Source of the DNA: a virus | IMG/VR virus record: IMGVR_UViG_3300025072_000006 | Coordinates: 1-53,396 of that record | Length of the DNA: 53,396 bases | Strand: one strand, 5' to 3' | Shown: one piece after another, positions 9,835 to 52,739 of the stretch | Position numbering within the stretch: the first letter of the stretch is position 1 | Layout of the letters: every line of letters begins with the position of its first letter | Notes under the pieces: generated by a model | What the model was told of the DNA's origin: nothing | Database searches by the model: none | The model's input: the letters and a program-made list of their open reading frames with translations, nothing else | Made by a program: the position numbers and the translations under genes

Positions 9835-11058
9835 TTATCCTATATAAATCTTAGTTGGTACTTTTGACAAAATTTCGTTCATTGCCTCATTCTCTGCTTG
9901 TTGTCTTGTCATCATACTTTCTTTTGTCATTTTTTCCAAAAATTCTCTTAATTGAGTTATGAGTGCATCTTTTTCTGATGTTCCTTGTGATATCAATTCT
10001 GGGCCATTTAATGTAACTTCTGCATTTGGGATTGGCACCGTAGAATACTTTCCTCTAACGTAACCTAACATTTCTTTTGTTAATGCCAATGCATATTTTA
10101 TAATCCAAGCACGCCCCATATCATTAATTTTACTATATTTTTGATACGTATATGGTATATTTGATACATCAGATACTACCCCAGTTAACGCCGCAGTATT
10201 TCCAAATAAAATTGCATCGTTTGCTTTTCTTTCTTCAAATATAAATTCAAACCAAACATTATCATAATATGGTGTTGCGGCTGTTCCTTGTGTGCCTGGA
10301 ACTGGATATAATCTTATATCATCGCCATGTAATTCAAATGAAAAATGTGATTTTCGAATTCTATCATTAAATTCGATCGACTGTATTCTCAATAAATCTT
10401 GGTGAATTGGCATCATCATAAAATTAACTGATGGTGAAAATCCGCCAAAATCAAAAGAATCTAATAATTGTTGTGACCCCATGCCCGTACCTACAAATGG
10501 ATCAAAATATCTAACAATCGCTGGTGGAACATTATGTAATACTCTTTTAACTTCAATTGAACTAGTATCTGATAGTGCTATTCCTAATGATTTAGATACT
10601 GCTGCCCTTATACTATACGACTGTACTCCATCTCGTACGTCGATTGATGCAGAAAACCATTTTAAATTCCCTCCAGAGTCTCCTTCGGTCCCATATGTTT
10701 TTGATAGCTTTGTAATATATGATAATGAGCCACCAACTAATGTATCTGAAAAACTGCCTTCTGATAAAAATTGAGATCCTGTATTAATTCCTAATGTATT
10801 TAATAAATTGTTAGCTATATTGACTTGGTTGACTTGATTTGAATATTCTATTACCGCAGATTCAAATGCCGTATAAAAGTTTATATCTATTAATTCGACA
10901 TCCATAATTGGATATCCAACGTTGTTTGCTGCAAATACTGCGAAGCTGTCTGCTTGTTGTTGAAATAGCGCATCACTATCAAAAAAACCAAATGGAGTCT
11001 GTCCAGGGCTAAATGATGAGCTTCCGGGCCAGATTGGTTTATTTTCGCTGTAATCCAT
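9835..11058 (-). CDS. Neck protein, gp13-like
   Basis: A 407-residue protein. The C-terminal third carries INDMGRAWIIKYALALTKEM, then GYVRGKYSTVPIPNAEVTLNG and DALITQLREFLEKM, which I recognise from T4-type neck proteins of marine phages. The N-terminal region is rich in aromatic and Asn residues. T4 gp13 is about 309 residues, so this one carries extra sequence, mainly between residues 100 and 200. Its role would be to bind the portal at the packaged head and accept the tail with gp14. An A-rich leader with GAGGAAACAA precedes the ATG, with an ATATTTAT element 16 bases upstream. Confidence 0.6.
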   Translation of the reverse strand: MDYSENKPIWPGSSSFSPGQTPFGFFDSDALFQQQADSFAVFAANNVGYPIMDVELIDINFYTAFESAVIEYSNQVNQVNIANNLLNTLGINTGSQFLSEGSFSDTLVGGSLSYITKLSKTYGTEGDSGGNLKWFSASIDVRDGVQSYSIRAAVSKSLGIALSDTSSIEVKRVLHNVPPAIVRYFDPFVGTGMGSQQLLDSFDFGGFSPSVNFMMMPIHQDLLRIQSIEFNDRIRKSHFSFELHGDDIRLYPVPGTQGTAATPYYDNVWFEFIFEERKANDAILFGNTAALTGVVSDVSNIPYTYQKYSKINDMGRAWIIKYALALTKEMLGYVRGKYSTVPIPNAEVTLNGPELISQGTSEKDALITQLREFLEKMTKESMMTRQQAENEAMNEILSKVPTKIYIG

Positions 11059-11097: not shown

Positions 11098-11373
11098 TTA
11101 TTGCAATTTAGTTAATGTAGTTTCTAGCAATTGCATTTCTTCTAATGTTTCAATTTTTCCAATACACAATTTTCTAACTGCGTGAAATGATTGTCTAGGT
11201 GGATATGGTGTCATTAGTTTCATTGTAACTAACTCTGCTCCTTTACCTAAATCTTGTTCAATATGAACCATTAATACAAGCCGAATTGCTCGTATACGAT
11301 CTAACACATCTACTAAATTTCCTTTATAACGAATTCGAACTTGCATTGAATATTTTGTTCTAGGTGCTGCCAT
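11098..11373 (-). CDS. Small conserved-looking protein after the capsid gene, unknown
   Basis: A 91-residue basic protein (MAAPRTKYSMQVRIRYKGNL). The first 30 residues look like a beta-strand pair, followed by an amphipathic helix (DVLDRIRAIRLVLMVHIEQD) and a C-terminal helix (ETLEEMQLLETTLTKL). No family is recognised. It lies between the major capsid terminator and the neck genes, with its own ATATTTAT element and a GGAAAC-type ribosome site, so it may be made as a separate late transcript. A minor head or neck factor is the simplest guess from position alone. Confidence 0.6.
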   Translation of the reverse strand: MAAPRTKYSMQVRIRYKGNLVDVLDRIRAIRLVLMVHIEQDLGKGAELVTMKLMTPYPPRQSFHAVRKLCIGKIETLEEMQLLETTLTKLQ

Positions 11374-11494: not shown

Positions 11495-13144
11495 TTAAAG
11501 AGTATTTAATCCAGCTACATAAACTTTACCATAGAACTCAGGTCTTACGATTTTCTTCGCATAACGAGTCATAACCCCTTTTCTAGGAGTGAAGTTTACA
11601 GGATCGTACACTAATGGAGTCATGATAAGTGGAACGTATGGAGAATAAACTGCTCCAGTTTCAAGGAACTGTGCTCCTCTATATCCCATAAGGATTACGT
11701 TTTCTTTCATGTATGGGTTCTTATAAACTGTGTATCTATTATTCATAGCACCAATTTTTTGAACACCAGCGGCAAATTCCATTTTGTCACCATCTGTGTC
11801 AGCAGCAAATCCAGGAATAGATTCAAGGATAGTTGCAACAGCAGGACTAGTAACTAAGAAATTCGCTCCACCTCTAAGTGTCTTTTGGTGAATTTGATTC
11901 GATACTTTTTGAAGTTTAGTACCAAGTGTCTGGAACCATTCTCCTTGAGTATTATAATATCCACCGCCAGTTCCTACAGGTTTGCCAATAAAGCTATTAC
12001 TTGCAGCATCATAGAATTGATTAGACTCTGCTGACCAGAACTCAGTAGTAACTGCGCCATTGATAAGCATATCTAATATTTCAAGATCGATTTCCATCGA
12101 TACATATTCACTTAACATTGAAGTTAATTCAGCTTCAGCGTCAATTGAGTGATAAGCATTCAAATCTTGAGCAAATTCAGGTGTCCAAACAGCCTTTAAC
12201 TTTCTAGTCTTAGCAACGATTGGATCTGATTGCATTTCAAGATTCACTTCAGGAATATCAATATCTGTTCCTTCATTGATACCAAGATTAGTACCAGAAC
12301 CTTTAAATGGATCTGCATCTTCGAAATCACCTCTGGTTATATCTGATGGTTGTCTATTATATGAACAAGTATATCCGCCTGCAGCTAATACTGCGCCAGA
12401 TCCTGTTACAACAAACTCAATGTTTCCACCATTTAATCTAGTAAATGCTGGGAATTGAGTAAATGTTCCTGCTGATCCCGTAGATAATACAAATGATCTA
12501 ACAGCTGTATCATCAAATCTAGCTAGAGATGTAGTTGGAAATGATATTACTTGATATTTAGTTCCAAAAGCTGCAACATCAGTAAATGTACTGTCATAAT
12601 TAACAGATGCAGATGTTGCACTTGCTATAGTAGCAGTATCGCCTTGTAAATGTTCGTTAATAGAATAAGCAAATCTACCAGCGCCATAAAGACCGCCTGA
12701 TGCTTCGCCTGCATCTGAAGTAACACCGAACATCGAGTTATCGGCATTTGGAGAACCAAATTTGTATGCATTAGATGTTCCACCTGTTGTGTCAAATCCA
12801 GGTTGTGCTGTTCCATATTTAAAGTCTAAGTAAAATACTAGACCTGATGGTAGATTCATTGGTTGTACAGAAACGAATTCTTTAGCAGCAAATTCTGCAA
12901 AAATTCTTCTTACCAATGGAAGAGCTACCCCTGCCCATTCTTCTGATCCCTCTGCGGTGCCAGTTCCTGACGATTCTCTTACCAGCTGTCTAGCTTGGTT
13001 TTCAAGAAGCTGCGCCATTCCTGCTCGCTCGGTTTCATTTTTTAGGCCTTCTAGAAGACCTGTTCTTTCCCATTTTGATACTAGCCCTTTGGCTTTGTTT
13101 CTCTGGGAAGGATTATTGTCTTCTAATAATGATGATATATTCAT
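11495..13144 (-). CDS. 23: Major capsid protein gp23
   Basis: A 549-residue protein matching the T4 gp23 family in length and in position directly after the scaffold gene. The N-terminal 60 residues (MNISSLLEDNNPSQ, then LVSKWERTGLLEGL and LLENQARQLV) form the helical pro-region. It is followed by GVALPLVRRIFAEF and VSVQPMNLPSGLVFYLDFKY, typical of the family core. The C-terminal part (TPLVYDPVNFTPRKGVMTRYAKK) is also characteristic. In T4 the pro-region is removed by gp21 after an (L/I)xE site. Candidate sites here are LLE at residues 6-8 and others within the first 65 residues. The ribosome site is GGAAAG seven or so bases from the ATG. Transcription ends at the hairpin 11421-11444. Confidence 0.92.
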   Translation of the reverse strand: MNISSLLEDNNPSQRNKAKGLVSKWERTGLLEGLKNETERAGMAQLLENQARQLVRESSGTGTAEGSEEWAGVALPLVRRIFAEFAAKEFVSVQPMNLPSGLVFYLDFKYGTAQPGFDTTGGTSNAYKFGSPNADNSMFGVTSDAGEASGGLYGAGRFAYSINEHLQGDTATIASATSASVNYDSTFTDVAAFGTKYQVISFPTTSLARFDDTAVRSFVLSTGSAGTFTQFPAFTRLNGGNIEFVVTGSGAVLAAGGYTCSYNRQPSDITRGDFEDADPFKGSGTNLGINEGTDIDIPEVNLEMQSDPIVAKTRKLKAVWTPEFAQDLNAYHSIDAEAELTSMLSEYVSMEIDLEILDMLINGAVTTEFWSAESNQFYDAASNSFIGKPVGTGGGYYNTQGEWFQTLGTKLQKVSNQIHQKTLRGGANFLVTSPAVATILESIPGFAADTDGDKMEFAAGVQKIGAMNNRYTVYKNPYMKENVILMGYRGAQFLETGAVYSPYVPLIMTPLVYDPVNFTPRKGVMTRYAKKIVRPEFYGKVYVAGLNTL

Positions 13145-13160
13145 TATTTCTTTCCTTTTT

Positions 13161-14189
13161 TTAGTTAGGCAATAAACCAGCTAATTTCTTCCATCGATTA
13201 GCTAATTCATGTCCTTCGTTAATAATTTGTTTCGTTTTCTTACTCGGTGCAGTAGTTCCAGATGGTTTGGAAGCATAGCTTTCTTTTACCATTTTGCGCT
13301 TTTTAACAGGCACATTGAAACTTTCTGCTAATGTACTAAACACTAATTTTACTTCTCTAGTTGTTCCAGCTCTATCAAAATTTTCAATTACTTTCATTTT
13401 TTGATTTTCATTAAGCTCGAAGTTCCTAAATAATTTGTTAGTGTAAAGGAGCTTTGCATTTAAAAGATTGACTTCATTGATTGTGTGTCGAAGTGAATGA
13501 ATCGTGTTATAAGCTTCTTCAAGCTCTTCTTTTGCTGATTCATCTACTGGTTCTTCTTCAATATCTAGTTCAGCAGCTTCAATATCATCATCTTCAGCAA
13601 GAATTGATTCAATGATTTCATCGATGTTAAAGGCTTCTTCTAAATCATTGTCTTCAATTTCAGCTTCTGTATCTTCTACTTGTTCATCACCAGGAACGGT
13701 TACATCTTCATTTAAGTCTTCTTCTAACTCTCTAATAATAGATTCAAGTTCCATATCATCAACAGGTGCTGGTACTTCTTCAGATGGTTCGATAATTTCT
13801 TCACCTGCGTCAAACTCTCCTTCAATTTCATCACCGCCTGCTGGCACTAATTCATATTGTTGTCCGCCTATCGTAATAGATGTATCATCTTCCATGCCTG
13901 CTTCGGCACCTAGATCACCTAATGGATCTTCTATTGGAGCTTCTCCGCCTAATTCGGCTTCTAAGTCCATTTCGCCGGCGCTTTCTAAGTTCGCAGTTGG
14001 TTCGTCGAATTCCATCGGCAGCTCTTCATCAAATTCAGCATATTCGTCTTCAGCTAATTTAGTTGATAACATTGATTGAATCCTTGGAGCAAAAGCTTCT
14101 TCTAATGCAATTTTTGCGTTTGCTAATGCGGTTTCTTTAACGGCCTTAGCGTCCGCAATCGCTTCTTTTAGCAAATCTGATTTTGCCAT
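13161..14189 (-). CDS. 22: Prohead core scaffold protein gp22
   Basis: A 342-residue, extremely acidic, helical protein. I place the start at ATG 14189 (MAKSDLLKEAIADAKAVKET) because AAGGAG lies seven to eight bases upstream. A longer frame to 14336 would run through the leader and encodes implausible sequence. Residues 50-240 are dominated by Glu and Asp. The C-terminal 100 residues (NLLNAKLLYTNKLFRNFELN, then ENFDRAGTTREVKLVF) are the part I recognise from gp22-type scaffolds of marine T4-like phages. The scaffold forms the internal core around which gp23 assembles and is later destroyed by gp21; several LxE/IxE sites are present. It is 16 bases upstream of gp23. Confidence 0.85.
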   Translation of the reverse strand: MAKSDLLKEAIADAKAVKETALANAKIALEEAFAPRIQSMLSTKLAEDEYAEFDEELPMEFDEPTANLESAGEMDLEAELGGEAPIEDPLGDLGAEAGMEDDTSITIGGQQYELVPAGGDEIEGEFDAGEEIIEPSEEVPAPVDDMELESIIRELEEDLNEDVTVPGDEQVEDTEAEIEDNDLEEAFNIDEIIESILAEDDDIEAAELDIEEEPVDESAKEELEEAYNTIHSLRHTINEVNLLNAKLLYTNKLFRNFELNENQKMKVIENFDRAGTTREVKLVFSTLAESFNVPVKKRKMVKESYASKPSGTTAPSKKTKQIINEGHELANRWKKLAGLLPN

Positions 14190-14262
14190 TTTTTTTCTCC
14201 TTAAATTTTTTTTTTTGGAAATAAGATTATTTGGAATCTTAATAGAATAATTAATTTTCGTG

Positions 14263-14370: not shown

Positions 14371-14592
14371 TTATTCAGCTACAGGTTCTTCTGGTGCAGA
14401 TTCTTCTGCGTCTGGCTCTGTTGCTTCAATTTTTAAAATCAATGTAGAATCCGTTACTTCAATAGATTCAACTTCAACTTCAACTCCTTCATTAAGAGTT
14501 GGTGCATCTGCGTCTGTTACACCCGCGTCTGCTTCTTGTGTATTACAAGCAACCATTGCTCCCAATACAAATAAAAATACTAGTTTTTTCAT
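14371..14592 (-). CDS. Small acidic lipoprotein
   Basis: A 73-residue protein with a classic lipoprotein signal: MKK, hydrophobic LVFLFVLGAM, then the lipobox MVAC with Cys16. The mature 58 residues are strongly acidic (Glu, Asp, Val, Pro) and begin CNTQEADAG. Acidic residues shortly after the Cys resemble the surface-export signal described for Bacteroidetes lipoproteins, which is an inference. The leader carries a 13-base A tract just upstream of the start. Lying in the head cassette but exported to the envelope, it may act in lysis (outer-membrane spanin), superinfection exclusion or receptor masking. Nothing in the sequence decides between these. It ends at a strong terminator and is likely well expressed. 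Confidence 0.75.
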   Translation of the reverse strand: MKKLVFLFVLGAMVACNTQEADAGVTDADAPTLNEGVEVEVESIEVTDSTLILKIEATEPDAEESAPEEPVAE

Positions 14593-14668: not shown

Positions 14669-14926
14669 CTAATCGTCTGCGTGTAAGTCTTTTATTTTTT
14701 GGGTATATATTGCATCGATTTTTTGTTTTCTTCTCTTTACACTTGGTTTTAAAAACTCTCTTCCTTCTTTCAAGTTTACTAAAACATCGGAATCTTTTAA
14801 TTTTCTTTTCCAAATCCTTAATGCAAAGTTAATATCTTTTTCTACGACTCTAGCACTGATGCCATGTCCTGGGGCTACTGATAGGTGTTGTTTTTGTTTT
14901 TTACTCATTCTTTGTTTTTTATTCAT
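14669..14926 (-). CDS. rpsU: Ribosomal protein bS21 homologue
   Basis: An 85-residue basic protein. Residues 25-80 align by eye with Bacteroidetes bS21: an N-terminal strand (ISARVVEKDINFAL), the helix RIWKRKLKDSDVLVNLK, the family's REFLKPSVKRRKQK and a C-terminal basic helix (YTQKIKDLHADD). The first 20 residues (MNKKQRMSKKQKQHLSVAPG) are extra compared with host proteins. Met7 is an alternative start. bS21 binds the 30S platform near the 3' end of 16S rRNA and influences start-site selection. Phage-borne bS21 is known in several phage groups and is thought to replace or supplement the host protein. It lies 11 bases after an unknown head-cassette gene, without a clear Shine-Dalgarno. Confidence 0.85.
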   Translation of the reverse strand: MNKKQRMSKKQKQHLSVAPGHGISARVVEKDINFALRIWKRKLKDSDVLVNLKEGREFLKPSVKRRKQKIDAIYTQKIKDLHADD

Positions 14927-14937
14927 TATAACTTATT

Positions 14938-15354
14938 TTATACGATATCGTTTGTGGGTGGGGCAGGTGGTGGTGCTTGTGGTTGTTGTGGTGCTTGTGG
15001 TTGTGTAGGTTGTCCTGTAGTAAATTTAAATCTTGCTACTTCTGGTAGCTGACTTATAAATCCTTGGATTCTTTGTGATTCTTTTCCTGGGTCTTCTCCT
15101 AACCTAAAATGAAAGAATCCTAATCCTTTTGCATCATTAAATTGTGTTCTAATAATATGCATTTTCTTTTTTGCTGCAAATTGTTGTATGTCTTTTCTTA
15201 CATCAATTGCTGTTGCTGGATTATGTAATTGGTAAACTACACCTCCTCTATAATCGGTCATATGATTTAATAAATCTGCTTCTTCTAGTTCTGGCGATTC
15301 ATTTATTTTCTTAAACCCGAAAAATTTTCTATACATATCATTAACATTTGACAT
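14938..15354 (-). CDS. Head-cassette protein with Pro/Gln-rich tail, unknown
   Basis: A 138-residue protein. Residues 1-30 are charged (MYRKFFGFKKINESPELEEA). Residues 30-110 look like a small alpha/beta domain (GGVVYQLHNPATAIDVRKDI, then MHIIRTQFNDAKGLGFFHFR). The final 25 residues are a low-complexity Pro/Gln/Ala segment (QPQAPPPAPP) ending NDIV. I do not recognise a family. The N-terminal LEEA could be a prohead-protease site. The place between gp21 and gp22 is where T4 has small core proteins. A purine-rich leader (AAAAGGTAAGAAG) precedes the ATG, with a degenerate A+T-rich element around 15365. Confidence 0.6.
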   Translation of the reverse strand: MSNVNDMYRKFFGFKKINESPELEEADLLNHMTDYRGGVVYQLHNPATAIDVRKDIQQFAAKKKMHIIRTQFNDAKGLGFFHFRLGEDPGKESQRIQGFISQLPEVARFKFTTGQPTQPQAPQQPQAPPPAPPTNDIV

Positions 15355-15769: not shown

Positions 15770-16393
15770 TTATATCCTACATTTTCCATCATCACAAAGT
15801 ATTGAAGTTATAATTTCATGTACTCTGTCATATTTGTTTATTACATTCATTTTATTTGCCGACTCAAACATTGGTTGCATAAATGCTCCTGTAGTCGACG
15901 GATTAGATACAAAGTCCCAACATATTAATTCAAAGTCTTCTTGAACTTCAACTGCTGATTCTTTATATAATTCTTTTACACTTCCTAAACCTCTACTAGA
16001 TATTCCTAATGTTATCCCTGATTTAAATAGTGATTTTAATATATTTCCTGCGGGAGTATCTAATACTTGTACTGCTCCTTTAAGACTATCGCCATCCCAC
16101 CATATTTTTAAAACATTGTGAGATACATTATTTAAATTAACAATTGATGATTCAGGATGATCTAATTCTCCTAATGCTCTATTTTGATCAATATATTCTT
16201 TTTGATATCTTACGCACTCTCTAGCTAAAATATTTTTTGGGTATATTCTTCCATTCTGGTTTTTTGCTCCAGCTCTTTGTAATACCCCTTGAACTACCAT
16301 TCCACCAGGTATGCCGAATTTTGCTCCGTCTGCCTCGGTTAGTGGCGAAAGTGGTTTAAATGGCATATATTCTACTAACAATGATTTAGACAT
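15770..16393 (-). CDS. 21: Prohead core protein protease gp21
   Basis: A 207-residue protein of the T4 gp21 serine protease family. The expected blocks are visible: GVLQRAGAKNQNGRIYPKNI (36-55), ALGELDHPESS with the likely catalytic His79, and LGISSRGLGSV with the likely nucleophile Ser132 or Ser133. WDFVSNPSTTGAFM follows near 173-186. The length matches the family (T4 gp21 about 212 residues). It matures the prohead by cutting scaffold, capsid and internal proteins after (L/I)xE. Its own N-terminus has LVE at 6-8 and LTE at 18-20, possible self-cleavage sites. It lies one base after the preceding gene. Confidence 0.92.
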   Translation of the reverse strand: MSKSLLVEYMPFKPLSPLTEADGAKFGIPGGMVVQGVLQRAGAKNQNGRIYPKNILARECVRYQKEYIDQNRALGELDHPESSIVNLNNVSHNVLKIWWDGDSLKGAVQVLDTPAGNILKSLFKSGITLGISSRGLGSVKELYKESAVEVQEDFELICWDFVSNPSTTGAFMQPMFESANKMNVINKYDRVHEIITSILCDDGKCRI

Positions 16394-16394
16394 C

Positions 16395-16976
16395 TTATTC
16401 TCCTAATCTTCTAACACGTTCAGAAATCTTTAATAATCGTTCTGAAATCTTATTTAATGCTGTGTGAGTAGACTTTCCATATTCGGCCCTTGTCATTCCT
16501 GATTCGTTTTTTAATCTACCTGTATAATTTATTAATTGTTCAATTTCTTGTAATTTTTTAGCTACTTCCCTGATAGTAGTATTTACTGTTCTGGATGGCG
16601 ATGCTTTTGAGCCATTACCCATTGCAAATTTAGAATATGATTCAATTAGCTTCTCATATTTCTTATCCATTGCTTCGGAAACAGATGCCCATTTATAATC
16701 TCGTTTCTTCTTCCCAAATGCCTTTGGGGTCATATATGAACCTGCCCCTCCGGATGTTGATGCTTCTTCTATATCTTCTTCTGTTATATTAATTTTTTGA
16801 GTTGGGTCTTTTTTTTCTAAATCACTTACTGTTTCTTCCCAATCAGGATCTCCTCCCTTTGATACAGTAATTACTTCATCTATACATATACATTCATGCA
16901 TACCACATTCTTCACACAGTTCTGCTTCATTAACAGTTTTAAATTTTTTTTCTATTTCAGTTAAAAAGGATTTCAT
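16395..16976 (-). CDS. Head-cassette protein with Cys knuckle, unknown
   Basis: A 193-residue protein. The N-terminus MKSFLTEIEKKFK contains LTE, a candidate prohead-protease site. A compact cysteine cluster follows (ELCEECGMHECICIDE, residues 19-34), which could bind zinc. The middle has STSGGAGSYMTPKAFGKKKR, a phrase I associate with a conserved protein next to the portal and protease genes of marine T4-like phages. The C-terminal 80 residues are helical (REVAKKLQEIEQLIN, then ALNKISERLLKISERVRRL). The function is unknown; a core component is plausible. The start ATG overlaps the stop of the gene upstream by four bases (ATGA). Confidence 0.65.
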   Translation of the reverse strand: MKSFLTEIEKKFKTVNEAELCEECGMHECICIDEVITVSKGGDPDWEETVSDLEKKDPTQKINITEEDIEEASTSGGAGSYMTPKAFGKKKRDYKWASVSEAMDKKYEKLIESYSKFAMGNGSKASPSRTVNTTIREVAKKLQEIEQLINYTGRLKNESGMTRAEYGKSTHTALNKISERLLKISERVRRLGE

Positions 16977-17827
16977 TTTATATTTGCCTCTTTTAATTCT
17001 TTAATTAAATCAAAATATCTTAATAATGATAATACATGAGATTCTTTAATAGTTTTAATTGTCTTAACATTACAAAGCATTTCTGATAATTTGTCTACTT
17101 TAATTTTTGTTACTTTGTCATCTATTAATTTAATATGTTCTTTTAATTGTTTTTTAATAACTGGAATAACTTTATTGATATATTCCTTTAAAGACTCAGT
17201 ATCATTAACGTGTGTAATATAATGATTAAGCAAATTCTTTTGAGATTCATTTAACCCAGAATATTTTTGATTAAATTTATCAACTAATAATTTATATGTT
17301 AATAATCGAACATCTTTGTGTTGATTTTTAAATGTTTCTAATACAGTATCTTTTTTCGGAGTATTTACATTTCCAATTAAAATATGTTCTATAATTACAT
17401 CTTTACATTCTAATATTTGTTTAGGATTACGTGATTCATCATATTCAAATAATTTATATATCGAAGCAATTTGTTTATAATTATTAATCCTAATTTTTGA
17501 CATTTTATCAAAAATAAAATTGTTTGATATTTCTTTTACTAAATTATACCGTTGTCTTTTAATTAAAGATTTATTTAATTTATTGTGTGTATCTTTACAA
17601 GACCTAATAAAATCTAATGCTCTTGCTTCTGACTTAAATTGTTCTTTTATTAATGAATTATATAATTGTAGTTCTTTTGACATCTCTGTATTTTTTCCGA
17701 AATACTTTTTAATTATATCAATTGTCACCGACTTATCTGAAGTCAATGATTCGGATGTTAATTTCCTTACTAAAATTTCGAATAATATTGCCGTATTCTT
17801 ATATTTAGAATGTTTTAGTTTTTTCAT
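16973..17827 (-). CDS. Helical protein downstream of the portal, unknown
   Basis: A 284-residue, Lys/Ile/Asn-rich and almost entirely helical protein (MKKLKHSKYKNTAILFEILV). No motif or membrane segment is visible. Repeated short helices such as LLTYKLLVDKFNQKYSGLNE and VIPVIKKQLKEHIKLIDDKV suggest a helical bundle. It lies 39 bases downstream of the portal gene, with its own ATATTTAT element and a good AAAGGA ribosome site, and overlaps the next gene by four bases. Position between gp20 and gp21 suggests a prohead core or assembly role. I do not recognise a family. Confidence 0.65.
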   Translation of the reverse strand: MKKLKHSKYKNTAILFEILVRKLTSESLTSDKSVTIDIIKKYFGKNTEMSKELQLYNSLIKEQFKSEARALDFIRSCKDTHNKLNKSLIKRQRYNLVKEISNNFIFDKMSKIRINNYKQIASIYKLFEYDESRNPKQILECKDVIIEHILIGNVNTPKKDTVLETFKNQHKDVRLLTYKLLVDKFNQKYSGLNESQKNLLNHYITHVNDTESLKEYINKVIPVIKKQLKEHIKLIDDKVTKIKVDKLSEMLCNVKTIKTIKESHVLSLLRYFDLIKELKEANIK

Positions 17828-17850
17828 ATCGAAACAAAGTTCCTTTACAT

Positions 17851-17866: not shown

Positions 17867-19687
17867 TTATAAAATATTGTCTTCATCTAACATTGTGCCG
17901 GAATCTACATCTTTATTTTGGTTTTCTGTTATAATCTTTGAACTTCTGGGTCTTAAATGGTTTAAAATATCAGCATTTTCTGTTGCTACAGTTGTTCGTG
18001 TATTTCTAAATCTAGGATCAGGCTGGAATGTGGTTGAAAAGTTTTTAGGATTGGTGCCTTGCTTAATTGTTTTAGCACCAGTCGGATCCCAGCCAAATTC
18101 ATTTTTATGCTGTCCATATTTAATTCCCTCGGGCGGTCTTCCACCTTGATCTTTTTCTTCTACATCGTCAGAACTCATATGAATTGATGCTAAATCGTGT
18201 GGGGTTCCAAATGATGTTCCTGTTAATGTTGGGTCGTTGCCTTCTTGTTCAATTTGGTTTTGTCTGAATCTTAATTTAAGATCTTCAATTACATTATTAC
18301 GTTCTTCAAGCCATTCATCTTCAGACATATTAAAAATATATTCATATATGTATTTATCAGAAACTAATTTAGAATCTTTCATCGATGTTGCTAATGTCAT
18401 TTTTTCAGTCATTAATGCGACTTTTTGTTGATCATAGATAATTGATGGAGGAGTTAAGTCTAATTCAAATCCTATTAAATCATCTCCTTCAAATCCTTGA
18501 GAATATAAATGTACAATTCCAATTTTAACTAATTCTGAAACTACTATTTTTTGAATTCTTTCAATTGTTCTTGCAAATCTAATATCCATTGATGCCAATG
18601 TAGTTTTGCCTTCAACTCCCTCATCATATCCCAGGAATGGTTTAGGAATTTTTAATGCTGCCATCATTTTGTGTTTTACGTATTCAATGTCATCGATGCC
18701 GGTGAACTCCATTCCTGGTAGTGTATCTATTGTTGTTTGACTATTGCCTCCCCGCACAGGTAAGTAGTAATCTTCTAACATGTTATTTAAATTAAATTTA
18801 AGATTATAGTTACCGGTTTGTTTATCAACATATGGAATTTTTTTCATTTTATTAATAATTGTTTCCATAAATGAATCAACTTCATTTGGTGGAATATTGC
18901 CAATATCAATTTTAAAAATACGTTTTTCTGGTGCTCTCATTATTCTGTGAATAAGCATTGCATCTTCTAACATCATTAATTTTTGAAATTCTTGTCTCGC
19001 GCCTTCTAACATAGACCTGCCGTACGGGAGAAAGTTTGAATCTGATAATAGCCTGAAATGTGCTATCTCAAATACATCATATTCTATATGCTCAGTTGCT
19101 GCGTGCCTAAATTTAATATCATATTCGCCCAACGTTTCATCATATTGCTCCAATCTTTCAATTTCATAAGTAGAAAGTGGGCGTGCATTTAAAATTCCTA
19201 TTTCTTCGGCAACATCTAATTTTAAAAAGAAATCTCCATACTTACACATATTACGAATCCATGGCCACATATTGAATTCAATGTTTAATATGTCATAATA
19301 TAAATTGTATAATATTTTTTGTATATGAGTTTTATTTGTTTTAATAGTTAATATATCACCAAATTGATCTGCTAAAGTTGATTCATCGGAGTATATGTCT
19401 AATGCAGATGATATTATTGGATCTTTATCCATCATCTCATAATCGGTATACAATTGCATCCGATTCTGTTGCATGTAGTAATTCGAATCATATCCGCCAT
19501 AACCACCCATATTATGTTTAGTTGTGCCGTGTAATCGATTGTATCTATCCGTTAATTTGCTTTGTGATAAATTCCCCAATGACTGTAATCTGTTAGTATC
19601 GACTACTTTTAGTCGATCCTTTCCATACTTACGTACTACTACATTGGTAGAAAATAAATTCTTTAAACGTTTTCTTAATGATGCCAT
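17867..19687 (-). CDS. 20: Portal vertex protein gp20
   Basis: A 606-residue protein with clear T4 portal-family sequence: DYEMMDKDPIISSALDIYSDE (about 88-108), YGRSMLEGARQEFQKLMMLE (about 222-242), HRIMRAPEKRIFKIDIGNIP (about 247-267), YLPVRGGNSQTTIDTLPG (about 313-330) and KIPKPFLGYDEG followed by KTTLASMDIRFARTIERIQ. It forms the twelve-fold ring through which DNA enters and leaves and nucleates head assembly. T4 gp20 is about 524 residues; the extra length here is mainly a low-complexity, probably flexible C-terminal tail of about 100 residues from GNDPTLTG onward. It lies 30 bases downstream of the terminase gene. Confidence 0.93.
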   Translation of the reverse strand: MASLRKRLKNLFSTNVVVRKYGKDRLKVVDTNRLQSLGNLSQSKLTDRYNRLHGTTKHNMGGYGGYDSNYYMQQNRMQLYTDYEMMDKDPIISSALDIYSDESTLADQFGDILTIKTNKTHIQKILYNLYYDILNIEFNMWPWIRNMCKYGDFFLKLDVAEEIGILNARPLSTYEIERLEQYDETLGEYDIKFRHAATEHIEYDVFEIAHFRLLSDSNFLPYGRSMLEGARQEFQKLMMLEDAMLIHRIMRAPEKRIFKIDIGNIPPNEVDSFMETIINKMKKIPYVDKQTGNYNLKFNLNNMLEDYYLPVRGGNSQTTIDTLPGMEFTGIDDIEYVKHKMMAALKIPKPFLGYDEGVEGKTTLASMDIRFARTIERIQKIVVSELVKIGIVHLYSQGFEGDDLIGFELDLTPPSIIYDQQKVALMTEKMTLATSMKDSKLVSDKYIYEYIFNMSEDEWLEERNNVIEDLKLRFRQNQIEQEGNDPTLTGTSFGTPHDLASIHMSSDDVEEKDQGGRPPEGIKYGQHKNEFGWDPTGAKTIKQGTNPKNFSTTFQPDPRFRNTRTTVATENADILNHLRPRSSKIITENQNKDVDSGTMLDEDNIL

Positions 19688-19717: not shown

Positions 19718-21295
19718 TTACAGAAGCCAGGTTAAATCTTCGTCTTCTGAACCATTATTCCACTTCCAACTATCGTTTTCATTAGAATTATTATTTGTGT
19801 AAATTGTATTATCTGTTTTTCTAAATTGTGATAAAGCTCTTTTATTCAACTCAATTCCGTGTTGTCTTAATTTTAAACTTGTATCTCGTAACCACAAACC
19901 TATTGCATAACTCATTACTAAATCGTCATTGTAGCCAATTTGTGCTTGTGCTTTACCATTAAGCCAAACAAATACAAATAATTCCTGAATGAGTCGTTTT
20001 GATTTAATAATCGGTGTTCCTTCTCTCATATACATTTCTAATGCAGATATCATTAATGGCCTGGTTCTACTTGTGGTTGACACTCCAGGAACCATTTTTG
20101 TTTTATCTTTTATGTCATATCCTTTTTGTAATTGAACTTCTAAATCTACATATCCTTCTGTTTTATATGTGTAAAATAAATTTTCATAGTTTCTATCTAA
20201 TGCTGGTTGTACTGCTGCCCAACCTATATTTGCATTTTCAATTGCTAATAATGCATTATTCCATTCAGTTGCAACTGATACTAACATGTTACCAAAATCC
20301 TTAGGTGGTAGCTTTCCTTTATACTCTGCTACCTGTGTTATAGTTTGAACATCTATTACATGAAATGCAGACCAATCTGATGCATCACCCCGTGCTACAT
20401 CAGCTACGACTATATAATTTTTTGTATAATCTGGGTAGTCCCAGATCCAATATCCATTATCGTACCCTCGTTTTTCAACTGGGTCTTCGCATTTTAATTC
20501 GTATTGTTGCAATATTAATCCATCTACTACAGTGTGTCCTGATGATATAAAATCGCAATCACACTCTTGTGCTGCTCCTCTTTCGCCTAATAGTTTTGTT
20601 TGCTCGAGTCTCCATTCTTGGTCTCGGTCTGGGTGTAAGTCCCAATGAAGTTTTATTGTTTTAAACCCATTTACTCCAGATTCGGCATCACTCCATATTT
20701 GATGAAACCAATTTCCTAATCCATTTGGAGTAGATAATACAATTGCACCACCACCTGTTGATAGTGTAGCCTGGGATGCTATCCATATTTCTTCAATGTT
20801 TCTAATAAATGCGGCTTCATCAACTATTAATAAAGATAACGCTTCTGATCGTGCTCCTGTAGATGCACTTGATATTGCTTTTATTTCCGAACCATTTTTG
20901 AATTTTAATGATAATTTATTGTTTGTAGTTATGACAACTTTTAGCCAACTAGGCAAATTTTCATTCATTATTTGAACTTTGCTTACTAAGTTTTTTGCTA
21001 CATCTTGTGTTGTTGCTATAACTAAAACATTGAATTCTTCATTAAATAACATACACCAAAGTGCATATCCGGCTGTTAATGTTGAAATTCCTAGCTGTCT
21101 AGATTTGAGTATTACATTGTATCGACTGTCTCTTAAATCTGATAGTGTTTCTTCTTGAAAGTCATATAAATCAAATTTGATTTTTCCTTTTAAAGGATGT
21201 TGGATATAACAAAATTGCCTCATAAAGTATACCGGGTCGGTAGCACACTTTACATACTGTTCTTGAATTATTTCTTTTATATTTTTCTGAGCCAT
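19718..21295 (-). CDS. 17: Terminase large subunit gp17
   Basis: A 525-residue DNA-packaging motor. The ATPase half has the Walker A variant KSRQLGIST (64-72), an adenine/coupling region (STGARSEALS) and Walker B LLIVDEAAF with Asp159 and Glu160, then the coupling motif VLSTPNG (187-191). The nuclease half has VVADVARGDASDWSAF (Asp299, Asp304 region), AIENANIG with Glu353, and GYNDDLVMSYAIGLW with Asp457/458, the three acidic positions of the RNase H-like fold. T4 gp17 is 610 residues, so this version is shorter at the N-terminus. It pumps DNA through the portal and cuts concatemers. It starts one base after the upstream stop. Confidence 0.95.
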   Translation of the reverse strand: MAQKNIKEIIQEQYVKCATDPVYFMRQFCYIQHPLKGKIKFDLYDFQEETLSDLRDSRYNVILKSRQLGISTLTAGYALWCMLFNEEFNVLVIATTQDVAKNLVSKVQIMNENLPSWLKVVITTNNKLSLKFKNGSEIKAISSASTGARSEALSLLIVDEAAFIRNIEEIWIASQATLSTGGGAIVLSTPNGLGNWFHQIWSDAESGVNGFKTIKLHWDLHPDRDQEWRLEQTKLLGERGAAQECDCDFISSGHTVVDGLILQQYELKCEDPVEKRGYDNGYWIWDYPDYTKNYIVVADVARGDASDWSAFHVIDVQTITQVAEYKGKLPPKDFGNMLVSVATEWNNALLAIENANIGWAAVQPALDRNYENLFYTYKTEGYVDLEVQLQKGYDIKDKTKMVPGVSTTSRTRPLMISALEMYMREGTPIIKSKRLIQELFVFVWLNGKAQAQIGYNDDLVMSYAIGLWLRDTSLKLRQHGIELNKRALSQFRKTDNTIYTNNNSNENDSWKWNNGSEDEDLTWLL

Positions 21296-23544: not shown

Positions 23545-23552
23545 ATAAATAT
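23545..23552 (-). promoter_or_regulatory. ATATTTAT element before the repeat-stalk gene
   Basis: The sense strand reads ATATTTATATTAAAAATAAGG, 21 bases before the ATG at 23523, touching the stop codon of the three-domain gene. Confidence 0.4.
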
Positions 23553-26389
23553 TATCTAGAATACTTTACAATGTTTAATATCTGATTTATTGGGGCAAAT
23601 GAGCCTGTTAGCTTATAAGTATTGCCTCCATATGTGAATACTAATCCTTCTATAGGAACAATTTTTTCAAATCCTCCAAGTCGTTGAATTTTTTGTAAAT
23701 GAGTTTTCATTAACTCTAATTTTCTTAAATCATTTGTCGATCGTAACTCTCGAATTACAGATGCTAAATCACTTCGTATTTGTTGTGCAGATTCTTTTGG
23801 ATTTGCAGCTAACATACTAGATACGCCTTTTAATACCTCTGCACCTAATTTTAAAAATATAGATTCAAATGGTTCCATATTTTGTTTTTGGTATTGTTTA
23901 AAATCTTTTTGATCAAAATTTACTACCCATTCTGAAAATTCTGGGCTATCGATTTGTTTTATTACATTTGTAATTCGTGGATTTTTAATATTAAATGCCC
24001 ACCTATTTACTAATATGTCTAATACATCATCTGTAATTTCATATCCTAATTCGATTGCTTTATCTCGTATTACATCTCTCCACCATCCTTTATGATATTC
24101 AGCTACTGTGTCTCTATCTTTTAATTCATATTGATTTTTTAATTGATCTACCTCGTTAAATAATGCATCTTGATAATCTTCAAAATCTTCTAATTGTCCA
24201 ACTTTAATTTTATTTGGTGGAATTAAATTAAACGTTTTTTGCATATGAGCATTTGCAGATTCGACTGCTTTTTGTATCACATTTGCGCCTGTCATATCAG
24301 TTTGGATTACATTTCCTTTGTCGTCAAATTCTTGTAAATTATGAAATTGTAATGCTGCAATGTCATATGAAATAACATTTTTAGTATCTGGATATATTAT
24401 TTCCATATTTGCGAATACACGACCGTTTTGGAATATACTTTGTATTGTTTCTGAATTAACTTGTGAAAATGCAGATGATAGGTCATTCCCTGCTTCTTTG
24501 AATGCAGTTGTTAATTCTCCACGACCAGAAAATTTCGTAGCTAATTCTTCAGCAGTTAATGGATTGACCCTTTCTCCTTTATTTCTAGCAAATTTAACTT
24601 GGCCATCTTTAACTGTTACAAATATATTTAGCCCGTCAGTCTTTTCTGTTACAGAAGATTCTATATCTAATCTTCCTTGTAATGCTCTTGCAATCATTTC
24701 TTTCATATCAGCAAATGATAAATCGTGGCGATCATATGGATGGTCCATATGACCTGCGAGGCCACCTTCCGTTAAATGTTTAGTTCCAAATACTGTTTTA
24801 GGAAATTTATTAAAATCATAAACAAATCCTTTATTATCATCTTTATCTAAATATTTTCTTAATTTGCTTATTTTTTGAATGTGTGCTTTAGCTCCTTTTG
24901 GAGTTTCATATCCTTCTGCTAGTTCAACATCAATTTTTATATCTGGATATTTTAATTCTAGGCCATTTACTGCTGCTACATTTTTTGCCGAATCATCTAT
25001 AAAATAAATGTCGTCATACCCTTTTTTTATTTGATCTTCTATCCACCTAGCCTTGTCCATTGGATCAGCTGACCCTAATGCTACGACATAAACATTTTTT
25101 ATTCCATGTTCTTTTTCCAACCAACGCTTAACTGGGTATCCGATTGATCTGGCAGTTAATATAGTTGTCTTTGCTCCCCTATCAGCTTGTGCTTTTTTAA
25201 ATGCTTCAACATTTTGTGTTATTGGAGTTGCTTGTTTTATAATTTTATCAAAATCTCTGAAATCAAAGTCATCTCCTGGCAATGGTTCATATACTGCAAA
25301 ATCTGCAGGCGATAATTCTGAATTTGTTCCGTCACTATGTTTTACATATATAGTAGCATTCATTTTGCCTAATGTATCATCAAAATCAAATACTCTTAAT
25401 CTTTTGCCTGTTCTTAATTCTGTAAACATTTGTTTTGCATCTTCAAGTAATTCATTTACCCACCATTCTTTTGTAAGAACAGGCTCGTGTTTAGCCTCTA
25501 CCCATAACGTAGCTGTTTGAGGAGAACCAATTACTTTTCTAATTTCTTCATTTGAGTCTGATTGAATTACATTGTCTAAGTCGTCATATTTCCAATGGGC
25601 TTGGTTGTCGCCTTTTCTATATCCATATGTGTAATTATCTGGACCATCTTCGACTATATTGTCTGGATGTAAATTTTTATAATTTTCAACAAATTTATTA
25701 TATTCTTGACCTATTAATGGCATCTGTGTAGAAAAATTTTCTTTTGGTTTTATACCTGCACTTTTTTGTACTCTGGCTTCTGCTTCATCGCCAAATTCAT
25801 CTCCAAATGTAGATTCGCCACCCAATAGTTGCCATACATTTTTTACTATGGCATCTGAGTAATTTGGATAGCTGGCTTTAAATTTTGCTAACTCTCCGGA
25901 ATTTATTGTAGATATAGTTGAGTCTGCAGATATAGGTTCTCCGTTTGGATATGTTAATGGATCTACATTTACCATTAATTCTATAGCATCAACTCCTTGT
26001 GGAACTTTATTTCCTTTTTTGTCTGGATTAATTTTATATTTATCAACTGATCCAATAAAGTGTTTTATTCGTACATAGTCTTTATCTTTATTAGCAGCGG
26101 CTAGTGCAAATTTTCCGACAGTGTCTTTTGGCATTGTAAGTAAATAATCAAATGCTGACGATAATGGAGAATTTAATCTAGAATATATTAATTCTATTTT
26201 TTTATTTCTATTTAATAAATTGAATATTTGTTTGGATTGCTCTCTTGTTACTCCGTGTCTTGCTTTTGGTCCAATAAACATTAAAACTTTGTCGACATTA
26301 GGGTTTTGTGCATATCGTTGGGCAAGAGCCATATGAGCTCCTGTGATTGGCTTAAATCCTCCTGGAAATAATACTGTTACTTTATCCAT
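23552..26389 (-). CDS. Three-domain protein: adenylyltransferase-like, HAD phosphatase, ligase-like
   Basis: A 945-residue fusion. Residues 1-190: a nucleotidyltransferase of the NMN/pantetheine-phosphate adenylyltransferase type, with VLFPGGFKPITGAHM (7-20, TGAH in place of HxGH), VDKVLMFIG and an ISADSTISTINSGEL stretch in the place of the family's ISSTxIR motif. Residues 330-490: a HAD phosphatase with RVFDFDDTL (Asp335, Asp337, Thr339), TILTARS (Thr412) and IYFIDDSAKN (Asp465, Asp466), closest in feel to the 3'-phosphatase part of polynucleotide kinase. Residues 540-945: polynucleotide ligase-type motifs, TEKTDGLN (Lys583 as candidate AMP-bearing lysine), FANMEIIYP (Glu663), PIEGLVF (Glu914) and YKLTG (Lys926), with about 250 residues inserted between motifs III and IV. 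A nucleic-acid end-repair or RNA-repair enzyme is likely; the exact substrate is unknown. Confidence 0.75.
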   Translation of the reverse strand: MDKVTVLFPGGFKPITGAHMALAQRYAQNPNVDKVLMFIGPKARHGVTREQSKQIFNLLNRNKKIELIYSRLNSPLSSAFDYLLTMPKDTVGKFALAAANKDKDYVRIKHFIGSVDKYKINPDKKGNKVPQGVDAIELMVNVDPLTYPNGEPISADSTISTINSGELAKFKASYPNYSDAIVKNVWQLLGGESTFGDEFGDEAEARVQKSAGIKPKENFSTQMPLIGQEYNKFVENYKNLHPDNIVEDGPDNYTYGYRKGDNQAHWKYDDLDNVIQSDSNEEIRKVIGSPQTATLWVEAKHEPVLTKEWWVNELLEDAKQMFTELRTGKRLRVFDFDDTLGKMNATIYVKHSDGTNSELSPADFAVYEPLPGDDFDFRDFDKIIKQATPITQNVEAFKKAQADRGAKTTILTARSIGYPVKRWLEKEHGIKNVYVVALGSADPMDKARWIEDQIKKGYDDIYFIDDSAKNVAAVNGLELKYPDIKIDVELAEGYETPKGAKAHIQKISKLRKYLDKDDNKGFVYDFNKFPKTVFGTKHLTEGGLAGHMDHPYDRHDLSFADMKEMIARALQGRLDIESSVTEKTDGLNIFVTVKDGQVKFARNKGERVNPLTAEELATKFSGRGELTTAFKEAGNDLSSAFSQVNSETIQSIFQNGRVFANMEIIYPDTKNVISYDIAALQFHNLQEFDDKGNVIQTDMTGANVIQKAVESANAHMQKTFNLIPPNKIKVGQLEDFEDYQDALFNEVDQLKNQYELKDRDTVAEYHKGWWRDVIRDKAIELGYEITDDVLDILVNRWAFNIKNPRITNVIKQIDSPEFSEWVVNFDQKDFKQYQKQNMEPFESIFLKLGAEVLKGVSSMLAANPKESAQQIRSDLASVIRELRSTNDLRKLELMKTHLQKIQRLGGFEKIVPIEGLVFTYGGNTYKLTGSFAPINQILNIVKYSR

Positions 26390-49235: not shown

Positions 49236-49679
49236 CTATTCGACCAATAATACCCCATTTTCTCCAGCAAATATTGTAATAGTTTCATTAGAAACAATCC
49301 CACTAACTGTAAATTGTATTGTTATTTTTATATCATGTATTAATGTTGAATCATCTTCTTGTGTGATAATACTTAAATCAGTAATATCAATATATGGCAA
49401 CCAATAACTAATAGCGTCGGTTATCGTTGATGAAATAACATCTTTTAGTTCACTAATATTTGGCTGAAATAATAAATTTAATAAACTAGTTCCCAAATTT
49501 GGCTGTGCATACCGTTCACCTTTTCTTGTTAACAACAAACTACGTACATTTGTTTTCGCTTGTTCTAATGTAGTATATGATTTTGTAAAAACACCAGGAA
49601 CGTCAAATGGGAATTTAACTCCAATTGCTTTATTCTGAGTTATACTATCGATATTTACATTAATGATTTGATATCCCAC
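49236..49679 (-). CDS. 25: Baseplate wedge protein gp25
   Basis: A 147-residue protein of the gp25/GPW family. The signature LLLTRKGERYAQPNLGTSLL lies at about 48-67, followed by LFQPNISELKDVISSTITDA and PYIDITDLSIITQED. Length compares with T4 gp25 (132). The start codon is GTG at 49679 because no in-frame ATG occurs before the conserved block; it overlaps the TAG stop of the upstream gene by one base. It joins gp6 in the wedge core and is needed for sheath attachment. Confidence 0.93.
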   Translation of the reverse strand: MGYQIINVNIDSITQNKAIGVKFPFDVPGVFTKSYTTLEQAKTNVRSLLLTRKGERYAQPNLGTSLLNLLFQPNISELKDVISSTITDAISYWLPYIDITDLSIITQEDDSTLIHDIKITIQFTVSGIVSNETITIFAGENGVLLVE

Positions 49680-50140
49680 TATCTGCCTTTTTTCTTATCA
49701 ATTGCTTTCATTAAAGCTGAATAGTCTTTTGTTATAGCAGCTGCTATAGTACTATCTACTTTTAACGTTTTACCAGTCTCTGGATCTTGCATTGTTGTGG
49801 GAGCTGTCCCATTTCTTTGCACTCCAAAACCCATTGCATCTTTTGATGTCATGACAATATCTTCATTCATCATAGACGCATAATCTCCTACACTTATTTG
49901 TTCTCTTAAAGAATTTGTTTCATTTAAAACATCAGAATATTTAGTTTTTTTAAATTTAACTTTATTTTTTACAACTGGCCTTGAAAGTTGTTCTTGCAAC
50001 GGCTTTTTAGTTGGCTGTAACTCTGAAATTGTTGATTGTAACCCTTCTTGTAGTATTTCTGTTAATTCTTGTTTAATAACAGCTCTTACTTCTTCTTGTA
50101 TTACTTTTCTTAATGTTTGAATAAATTTTTTCGATTCCAT
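49679..50140 (-). CDS. Coiled-coil protein before gp25, unknown
   Basis: A 153-residue protein. The N-terminal 45 residues (MESKKFIQTLRKVIQEEVRA, then IKQELTEILQEGLQSTISEL) form a long amphipathic helix, probably a coiled coil. Then come a basic stretch (KNKVKFKKTKYSDVLNETNS) and a region rich in Met and Gly (MNEDIVMTSKDAMGFGVQRN). The C-terminus ends AAAITKDYSALMKAIDKKKG. No domain is recognised. A baseplate or tail component is likely from context, since it overlaps gp25. Confidence 0.6.
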   Translation of the reverse strand: MESKKFIQTLRKVIQEEVRAVIKQELTEILQEGLQSTISELQPTKKPLQEQLSRPVVKNKVKFKKTKYSDVLNETNSLREQISVGDYASMMNEDIVMTSKDAMGFGVQRNGTAPTTMQDPETGKTLKVDSTIAAAITKDYSALMKAIDKKKGR

Positions 50141-50191: not shown

Positions 50192-51238
50192 TTAAAATGC
50201 CTCATTGTATTTATAATAATTTACGGGCGCTGGCCAGCCCTTAGATGTTTTCGGCCCATACATTTTTTGAGCAGCAGTATCAATATAATAATCGCCTGAT
50301 TTGCCTAAGTTAGAATTTGGTGGTTTAGTACCATTATATGATTGTGCTGGAGCTTCATGGAGTGATGTTAATAAATCTTGTTGATTTTTTACTAAATTAT
50401 CTATCATTTTAGAATATTTATTCAAATCTTCATCTGATACATTAATATCACTATATACTTCTGTACCCATTGTTGAATCATCGAGTCTGCTTTGTTGTGT
50501 ACCCCAACCAATGCCATCCGGGTTGTAATATCCACTACCAAACCAAACCCACATTCCGCCACATGAATCAGTATAAGGACTTTTTGGAGAAGGCGGCACT
50601 CCAAGAGGCTTCCCACAATCTCCACTACCAGATACCAATCTCCAATCTCCACCACTACCACCAGCACCGCCATCTCCGCCATCTCCGCCAGCGCCGCTAT
50701 TCAAAGATTTAGCTACATCTGCAGAAACATCAAATGTTTCATTATTACATATACCACCCAATTTAGATATAATACTAGCCAATTGGTTATTAATTAAAGA
50801 CATTCCTGCTTCCATTGTTGGTGGTATAAAATCTATTTGTTTTATTGCTTGTACTGCATTTGCAATAGTCATATTTTGTACCATCATTAATTCTGCTTGT
50901 AATGCAGCAACTCCTACAGCAGGGACCATAAATATTGCTGATTTTATTCCATTTGCAATTGTCATAGCAGTCTGCAATCCATTATATACCTTTTTAATAG
51001 TAGCTACTATATCTTGCACTTTTGCTATCATTTCTTTAGCATCTTCTATTTTATCTTTTATATCTTGGATTCTTGGATCGTCGCAATTAATATCATCTGG
51101 TAATTGGATAGCGTCTTGCAACGTTTCTCCGATTTTTTCTCCGATTTTTTTTATTAATTTATTAGCTTCGTTTGATAATATACTAACTCCCTTTGCTGGA
51201 AGTCCTGGTATTATATCTAATGGCGGTGTAACTGGCAT
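50192..51238 (-). CDS. Baseplate-associated protein with Gly-rich linker, unknown
   Basis: A 348-residue protein in two parts. Residues 1-170 are helical with a hydrophobic middle (AMTIANGIKSAIFMVPAVGV), suggesting a coiled or membrane-interacting segment. Then comes a Gly/Asp-rich linker (GAGGDGGDGGAGGSGGDW). The C-terminal 150 residues have WVWFGSGYYNPDGIGWGTQQ and a tail-fibre-type ending (NSNLGKSGDYYIDTAAQKMY, then GPKTSKGWPAPV), a motif often following collagen-like repeats in phage fibres. It may be a hub or tape-like protein with a surface module. AAGGAG precedes the start, and the gene lies 13 bases after gp5. Confidence 0.6.
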   Translation of the reverse strand: MPVTPPLDIIPGLPAKGVSILSNEANKLIKKIGEKIGETLQDAIQLPDDINCDDPRIQDIKDKIEDAKEMIAKVQDIVATIKKVYNGLQTAMTIANGIKSAIFMVPAVGVAALQAELMMVQNMTIANAVQAIKQIDFIPPTMEAGMSLINNQLASIISKLGGICNNETFDVSADVAKSLNSGAGGDGGDGGAGGSGGDWRLVSGSGDCGKPLGVPPSPKSPYTDSCGGMWVWFGSGYYNPDGIGWGTQQSRLDDSTMGTEVYSDINVSDEDLNKYSKMIDNLVKNQQDLLTSLHEAPAQSYNGTKPPNSNLGKSGDYYIDTAAQKMYGPKTSKGWPAPVNYYKYNEAF

Positions 51239-51251
51239 ATTGTTCTCCTTT

Positions 51252-52298: not shown

Positions 52299-52722
52299 TT
52301 TTTCTCTCCAACGACTCTTTAACGTTTTTTATTTTTTCTTTTAGCTCTTTATCCTCATCGTCAATTTTTTTGATTTCATCTGACAACTCGTCCTCAAATG
52401 TTTCTTCGGCAACTTTTAATAATTGCAATTTTTCTTCTTCACTTAATAATGAAGTTTCTCCGGAAATTGTCTGTGTAGCGGATATATAACGCTGGACTAT
52501 AGCGGTTAATTTAACCAAATGGTCATCGTTCTTCACTGCAACATCTAGGTATTCTTTAATTAATGGTACTATAATAGTAGCATCAGATGCATTACGTATT
52601 AATGGTTGTAATTGAGATATTAATTGATTTATTTGTCTATCTTTCTTTTTTGAATTGTGATAGACATCGGACATTAGGTCGGCAAAGCTAGTTCCTTTGA
52701 ATAATTCTTCTTTTATGTCCAT
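52288..52722 (-). CDS. Helical acidic protein after gp55, unknown
   Basis: A 144-residue acidic and helical protein (MDIKEELFKGTSFADLMSDV). The C-terminal 50 residues are a strong coiled-coil candidate (ETFEDELSDEIKKIDDEDKE, then LKEKIKNVKESLERKNES). No family is recognised. It lies between the late sigma factor and gp5; T4 late transcription also needs a small co-activator (gp33), which tempts comparison, but there is no sequence support I can see. AAGGA precedes the ATG. A tail-assembly chaperone is an equal possibility. Confidence 0.6.
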   Translation of the reverse strand: MDIKEELFKGTSFADLMSDVYHNSKKKDRQINQLISQLQPLIRNASDATIIVPLIKEYLDVAVKNDDHLVKLTAIVQRYISATQTISGETSLLSEEEKLQLLKVAEETFEDELSDEIKKIDDEDKELKEKIKNVKESLERKNES

Positions 52723-52739
52723 AGTACATCCTTTTAATA

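Follow-up and report, generated by a model that had tools for sequence, protein, structure and literature searches.

The window analyzed here, the whole 53,396-nucleotide stretch of the viral record IMGVR_UViG_3300025072_000006, carries on its minus strand a gene for an 85-residue ribosomal protein bS21 (14669..14926, read from 14926 to 14669). The protein matches the Pfam family Ribosomal_S21 (PF01165; E 2e-8, score 34.1 bits, family cut-off 27) and, marginally, NCBIfam TIGR00030 (29.2 bits against 28.95), and its closest solved structure by sequence is the bS21 of Flavobacterium johnsoniae (7jil). The match to the bS21 core claimed in a sequence-only reading of this DNA is thus borne out, as is the placement of the gene inside the head gene cassette. 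The cassette is T4-like and lies on the same strand, with the prohead protease (15770..16393; Pfam Peptidase_S77, E 1e-30) on one side of bS21 and, on the other, a gene in the scaffold position (13161-14189, named from its position) and the T4 gp23-like major capsid protein (MCP; 11495..13144; PHROG 138, E 2e-70). The portal protein (17867..19687; Pfam Portal_T4, E 3e-66) and the large terminase subunit TerL (19718..21295; Pfam Terminase_6N, PHROG 2) are also encoded on the minus strand. The open reading frame adjoining bS21 (14371-14592, minus strand) encodes a 73-residue lipoprotein-like product (MKKLVFLFVLGAMVAC...) with no Pfam or PHROG family above cut-off. Farther along the same strand (23552-26389), a 945-residue protein contains a polynucleotide-kinase-like region (phrog_415); a similarly sized protein in the Flavobacterium phage immuto is annotated as NadR.

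A location between the protease and capsid genes might point to a bS21 that is packaged in the capsid or used in head assembly, rather than one serving translation late in infection, and Chen et al. (2022, PMC9723584), who studied phages of freshwater Bacteroidetes, raise packaging as a possibility. We regard such a role as very improbable, given the conservation of the bS21 core and the association with Shine-Dalgarno (SD) leaders described below, which it leaves unexplained.

In the alignment with 7jil, Tyr74 of the window protein (codon 14705..14707, minus strand) lines up with F. johnsoniae Tyr54, a residue reported to stack on nucleotide A1534 in the 3' tail of 16S rRNA (McNutt et al. 2023, PMC9976891). 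The sequence-only reading had proposed to look in an alignment for the residues that contact the 30S subunit, and the aromatic residue stacking on the anti-SD is present; with it, the window protein belongs to the Bacteroidia type, defined by an aromatic residue at position 54. The AlphaFold2 model (mean pLDDT 83) has core helices at residues 32-45, 48-54, and 61-83, and a short helix at residues 9-16 (pLDDT about 73-85), within the N-terminal extension. A Foldseek search of this model against the PDB gave nothing significant, the top matches (E 0.7) being mitoribosomal small-subunit chains.

In the same alignment, window residue 31 corresponds to host residue 11 and window residue 21 to host residue 1, which sets the N-terminal extension, MNKKQRMSKKQKQHLSVAPG (14867..14926, minus strand), at 20 residues, the length previously claimed from the sequence. 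The extension is basic, with six Lys or Arg among its 20 residues, and contains no Phe, Trp, or Tyr. Its first six residues, MNKKQR, are limited to the window and its nearest relatives. Residues 7-20 are widely conserved, and their consensus, M[SN]KKxKxHxxIVPG, is kept with small variation in relatives found with the bS21 core as query. The octamer MSKKQKQH, shared by the relatives found first, was dropped as evidence of conservation because it had served as the search seed; conservation was judged again from a second scan, with the bS21 core without its N terminus as query, and the relatives inspected from that scan have M[SN]KKxKxHxx(I/V)xxG or a near variant ahead of the core. One sequence in the extension alignment, the RpsU of phage Mel-JY01 (L083), was added by hand, and its N terminus differs. 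A profile search of bacterial genome contigs with the phage bS21 alignment yielded no cellular relative.

For the analysis of leaders, starts were called uniformly as the longest ATG open reading frame, blind to SD sequences, and positions -20 to -4 were scanned for AAGG, AGGA, GGAG, GAGG, and AGGT, with the same bases shuffled as a control. SD-like motifs precede 24 of 40 genes in the window (about 58-60%), whereas 1000 shuffles gave 20% on average and never more than 37.5%. In the window and four relatives the motif is concentrated between -14 and -8. The four long relatives with an extended bS21 have SD motifs at 34-49% of genes. The corresponding value is 5% in phage immuto, a bS21-less relative that shares head genes with the window and has a 57% identical capsid protein, and 6% in a stretch of a Flavobacterium genome. 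On the minus strand of the window, AAGGAG precedes the scaffold-position gene (14197..14202) and the gene at 50192-51238 (51245..51250), AAAGGA precedes the MCP gene (13153..13158), AGGAG the prohead protease gene (16400..16404), and AAGGA the gene at 52288-52722 (52729..52733), while the AAAGGA upstream of the gene at 16973-17827 (17841..17846) stands 13 nt from the start, a long spacing. The leaders listed in the sequence-only reading (at the starts 14189, 51238, 52722, and 17827) are therefore all found, the last one rather far from its gene.

The bS21 gene itself has an SD-less leader, ATCGTATAAAATAAGTTATA (14927..14946, minus strand). The same holds for every one of the 92 loci encoding an extended bS21 with an aromatic residue at position 54 (0/92 with an SD), though about 60% of the neighboring genes have one. 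The rpsU gene of F. johnsoniae is autoregulated through an extended SD (PMC9976891), the Flavobacterium rpsU leader being GAGAGGAGGTGT, and many, not all, host orders have this arrangement, which is absent from the window gene. Thus the host gene combines a very strong autoregulatory SD with an unextended protein, whereas the phage gene combines an extension with no SD, the reverse wiring of host rpsU. With its SD-less mRNA, the phage bS21 would be within reach of unmodified host ribosomes. Where residue 54 is non-aromatic, 11 of 40 bS21 genes have their own SD. A 735 kb phage with an unextended bS21, LR756501 (L719), has a host-like strong SD (AAAGGAGGATAA) before its bS21 gene.

We compared 232 dereplicated loci collected by five capsid-gene scans and a bS21 core scan. 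Pooled SD frequency was 0.60 (shuffled 0.20) in the 136 capsid loci with bS21, all of which have bS21 on the same strand as the head genes, and 0.19 (shuffled 0.09) in the 96 capsid loci without it; in 22 records (11-183 kb) behind bS21-less loci, no bS21 gene was found elsewhere. Among loci with bS21, SD frequency is lowest in L374 and L648, which belong to the three with little or no extension, and the extension, not bS21 as such, was therefore proposed as the correlate of SD use. This trait was chosen post hoc, and the huge phages and unextended IMG/VR loci were examined afterwards. When a locus is called SD-rich at an SD fraction of at least 0.3, the aromatic-54 phages with an extended bS21 (Tyr in 69, Phe in 23) are SD-rich in 91 of 92 cases, and those with an unextended bS21 in none of 36, comprising 34 IMG/VR loci and two huge phages not already among them. 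A Fisher test of this contrast counted 39 unextended cases and takes no account of kinship, and its value is not relied on here.

The unextended proteins come from two sources. In four phages of 634-735 kb with an unextended Tyr54-type bS21, SD frequency was 0.04-0.13 (shuffled 0.05-0.14). In 35 distinct IMG/VR loci the pooled value was 0.079 against 0.063 in shuffled leaders, and none reached 0.3; by eye, residue 54 is Tyr or His in 34 of them and Arg in L849. The bS21 proteins of L790 and L791 are identical to those of two huge phages, and in several of the 35 loci the capsid gene lies on the opposite strand. The supposition that any phage bS21 goes with SD use was accordingly rejected, phages with an unextended bS21 being at background. 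The comparison was repeated on the MCP leader alone, because a single orthologous gene lessens doubts about start calling: an SD is found in 84 of 89 loci with an extended aromatic bS21, in 37 of 37 with an extended non-aromatic one, in 19 of 96 without bS21, and in 1 of 3 with an unextended bS21.

A joint capsid tree including the unextended-bS21 phages provides six independent pairs on supported branches, and SD use tracks the extension in 5.6 of the six on average and never opposes it (median p 0.031). Sign tests of bS21 presence on capsid trees of 93 and 232 loci, and of the extension trait on the 232-locus tree, point in the same direction without reaching 0.05. Independent evolutionary contrasts are thus few, which counts against the explanation we favor. 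The comparative genomic data show that extended bS21 co-occurs with SD leaders across related phages.

The main rival explanation attributes this correlation to host range: phages with an extended bS21 would infect SD-using bacteria and keep bS21 for another reason. We examined 60 genomes drawn from the Bacteroidota phylum (L868-L927), with only about 15 genes scored per genome. Residue 54 of bS21 sorts these genomes by SD use. Those with an aromatic residue (n=24) are at background (pooled SD 0.070 against 0.082 shuffled, maximum 0.24, none SD-rich), and those with a non-aromatic residue, nearly always arginine (n=36), are often SD-rich, with a pooled value of 0.34 against 0.19 shuffled, some reaching 0.6-0.7 and up to 0.71. 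The latter genomes lend support to the host-range explanation, as do the 37 extended phage loci that are non-aromatic at position 54; in phages with Arg or Lys at this position, SD use could merely follow the habit of the host. Further support comes from bS21-less loci, of which 13 of 96 are SD-rich; SD use therefore needs no bS21 in some lineages. SD-rich bS21-less relatives (L650, L652, L653, L656, L657, L660, L662, and L664; SD 0.45-0.82) have either SD-using hosts or another route to SD use. A search of 395 Bacteroidota genomes for capsid homologs that might fix the host found none. What makes host range a less likely explanation for the window type is the absence of SD-rich genomes among the aromatic-54 bacteria, the low SD frequency in the 36 unextended phages of the same aromatic type, and the nearest named isolate, immuto, which lacks bS21 and infects Flavobacterium. 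The window virus itself probably infects a member of the Bacteroidota. Six unrelated bS21-less Bacteroidota phages have SD frequencies at or near background. The Bacteroidota promoter motif TAnnTTTG, tried as a host marker, was uninformative for the window clade and is absent from the Flavobacterium phage immuto too.

SD leaders are also distributed unevenly between gene types. Structural genes are SD-led in 50 of 86 cases and replication-type genes in 18 of 47 (38%; p 0.03), so that the bias toward late genes is real but not absolute, and SD leaders confined to late genes, as a strict rule, had to be rejected in favor of an enrichment. An AATATTTATATAAAA-like repeat occurs just upstream of many window starts on the minus strand, for example those of the genes at 9835-11058, 11098-11373, 17867-19687, and 49679-50140. 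In the intergenic regions of these phages, whether bS21 is present or absent, ATTTATA is over-represented about 2-10 times, and this motif is probably a late promoter. In phages with an extended bS21 of the window type, an SD is found at 56 of 97 genes with ATTTATA in the upstream spacer and at 39 of 164 other genes with an upstream spacer; in two bS21-less relatives, none of 42 late-motif genes has an SD. A wider set of head loci showed no SD contrast between genes with and without the motif, which would follow if almost all of those genes are late. In G003 and G005, a TATAAT-like sequence lies within about 5-15 nt of the start in several dnaB, primase, and DNA polymerase leaders, which suggests very short or leaderless early mRNAs.

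The sequence-only reading had proposed that the phage protein could change which starts are used late in infection. The finding that SD leaders track extended bS21 strengthens the idea of altered start choice; SD leaders also stand at replication-type genes and so are not limited to late ones. Comparative genomics supports the identification of the protein and an involvement in start selection, with the phage bS21 as a candidate cause of altered start choice, and the proposal as a whole is supported in part.

Several elements of this picture are already known, namely phage bS21 genes close to the head genes and their expression late in infection, the idea of ribosome substitution or takeover, and N-terminal extensions (PMC9723584, PMC7162821, PMC9976891). 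Among the ribosomal proteins encoded by viruses, Mizuno et al. (2019, PMC6375957) found bS21 to be the most frequent. The freshwater Bacteroidetes phages resemble the window in having a Bacteroidia-type bS21 with an aromatic residue at position 54, encoded inside the head region near TerL, portal, protease, and MCP genes and expressed late, for which a late role in ribosome takeover was proposed (PMC9723584). As described there, their bS21 and head genes are on opposite strands, whereas in the window both share one strand; the loci with the opposite-strand layout in our search lack both an N-terminal extension and any SD enrichment. The accessible part of that study makes no mention of SD leaders of phage genes. 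In huge phages, rpS21 has N-terminal extensions rich in basic and aromatic residues, for which competitive binding or preferential initiation was proposed (Al-Shayeb et al. 2020, PMC7162821). The window extension is likewise rich in basic residues but, unlike those, lacks aromatic ones; the same study links SD sequences to rpS1, not rpS21, and the huge phages with a Bacteroidia-type bS21 tested here show neither extension nor SD enrichment. An association of extended bS21 with SD leaders was not found in the literature searched, which included few subscription journals and preprints.

Under the view of Chen et al., the phage bS21 would simply replace that of the host and keep ribosomes replete as host synthesis falls, the anti-SD staying hidden through the residue at position 54 and the extension only aiding competition for ribosomes. 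The Tyr or Phe at this position in all 92 loci of the extended aromatic type agrees with such mimicry, as do the aromatic residue reported for every phage in PMC9723584 and the suggested role of extensions in competitive ribosome binding (PMC7162821). This view does not predict why SD leaders accompany extended and not unextended bS21, and we hold it to be rather improbable.

In F. johnsoniae ribosomes the anti-SD is hidden by bS21, bS18, and bS6, and loss of bS21 or mutation of Tyr54 causes the ribosomes to use SD sequences (PMC9976891). The host protein and that of the window share the same core, the tyrosine, and the same mRNA-selection site on the 30S platform. The gain of SD use in bS21-less ribosomes could also mean that an extended bS21 evicts the host protein or is itself weakly bound, so that ribosomes behave as if they had no bS21, and hence acts as a dominant negative and not as a new specificity factor; E. 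coli ribosomes with a pelagiphage bS21 were about 5% active (PMC6375957). The well-conserved core and Tyr74 are as expected of a protein that stays bound, and such displacement seems to us quite improbable.

We know of no hidden anti-SD in alphaproteobacterial hosts. The phage protein for which incorporation into E. coli ribosomes was demonstrated, that of Pelagibacter phage HTVC008M, is a phage bS21 like that of the window, but its host is an alphaproteobacterium (PMC6375957). The related Microcystis phage Mel-JY01 (PP395634) resembles the window in having RpsU in the same syntenic slot and SD-led genes, but differs in the Lys that replaces Tyr at position 54, in the N terminus, and in an SD in the leader of rpsU itself. 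This phage (PP395634.1; L083, L280-L287), deposited as infecting Microcystis, contains 14 intergenic copies of the Bacteroidota-type promoter TTG-N18-22-TAnnTTTG against 0.3 expected, and from these sequences the phage may really infect a member of the Bacteroidota present in that culture.

The explanation we favor, at a probability of roughly one half, is that the extended bS21, encoded by an SD-less gene, replaces the host bS21 and frees or stabilizes the pairing of SD and anti-SD, favoring SD-led phage genes. The SD-less bS21 mRNA would be translated by unaltered Bacteroidota ribosomes, in which host bS21, bS18, and bS6 hide the anti-SD, and during infection the product would substitute for host bS21 on the 30S subunit. 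The conserved basic extension of the phage protein would then either compete for the platform pocket with the 3' tail of 16S rRNA or steady the SD-anti-SD helix, and ribosomes with the phage protein would initiate efficiently on SD-led phage messages, chiefly those for the capsid and other late proteins. In this explanation we infer the Bacteroidota host, the entry of the protein into ribosomes, and any influence that the extension has on SD use. The main mechanistic difficulty is Tyr74, which argues that the phage bS21 can still touch the 16S 3' tail; as the corresponding F. johnsoniae residue contributes to hiding the anti-SD, its effect would need to be overcome by the extension. The lack of a clean division between early and late genes also speaks against the favored explanation.

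More tentatively, and with somewhat less confidence, we suggest that the extended bS21, itself translated by SD-blind host ribosomes, turns these into SD-reading ones with a preference for SD-led phage genes, a switch of the start rule that would mirror host rpsU autoregulation. Phage bS21 of the aromatic type splits in two, extended with SD leaders and unextended without. If the extended protein does unhide the anti-SD, it would clearly exemplify the installation of specialized ribosomes by a virus, with a built-in order in which the SD-less bS21 comes first and the SD-led genes next, and sequence alone would predict which phages do so.
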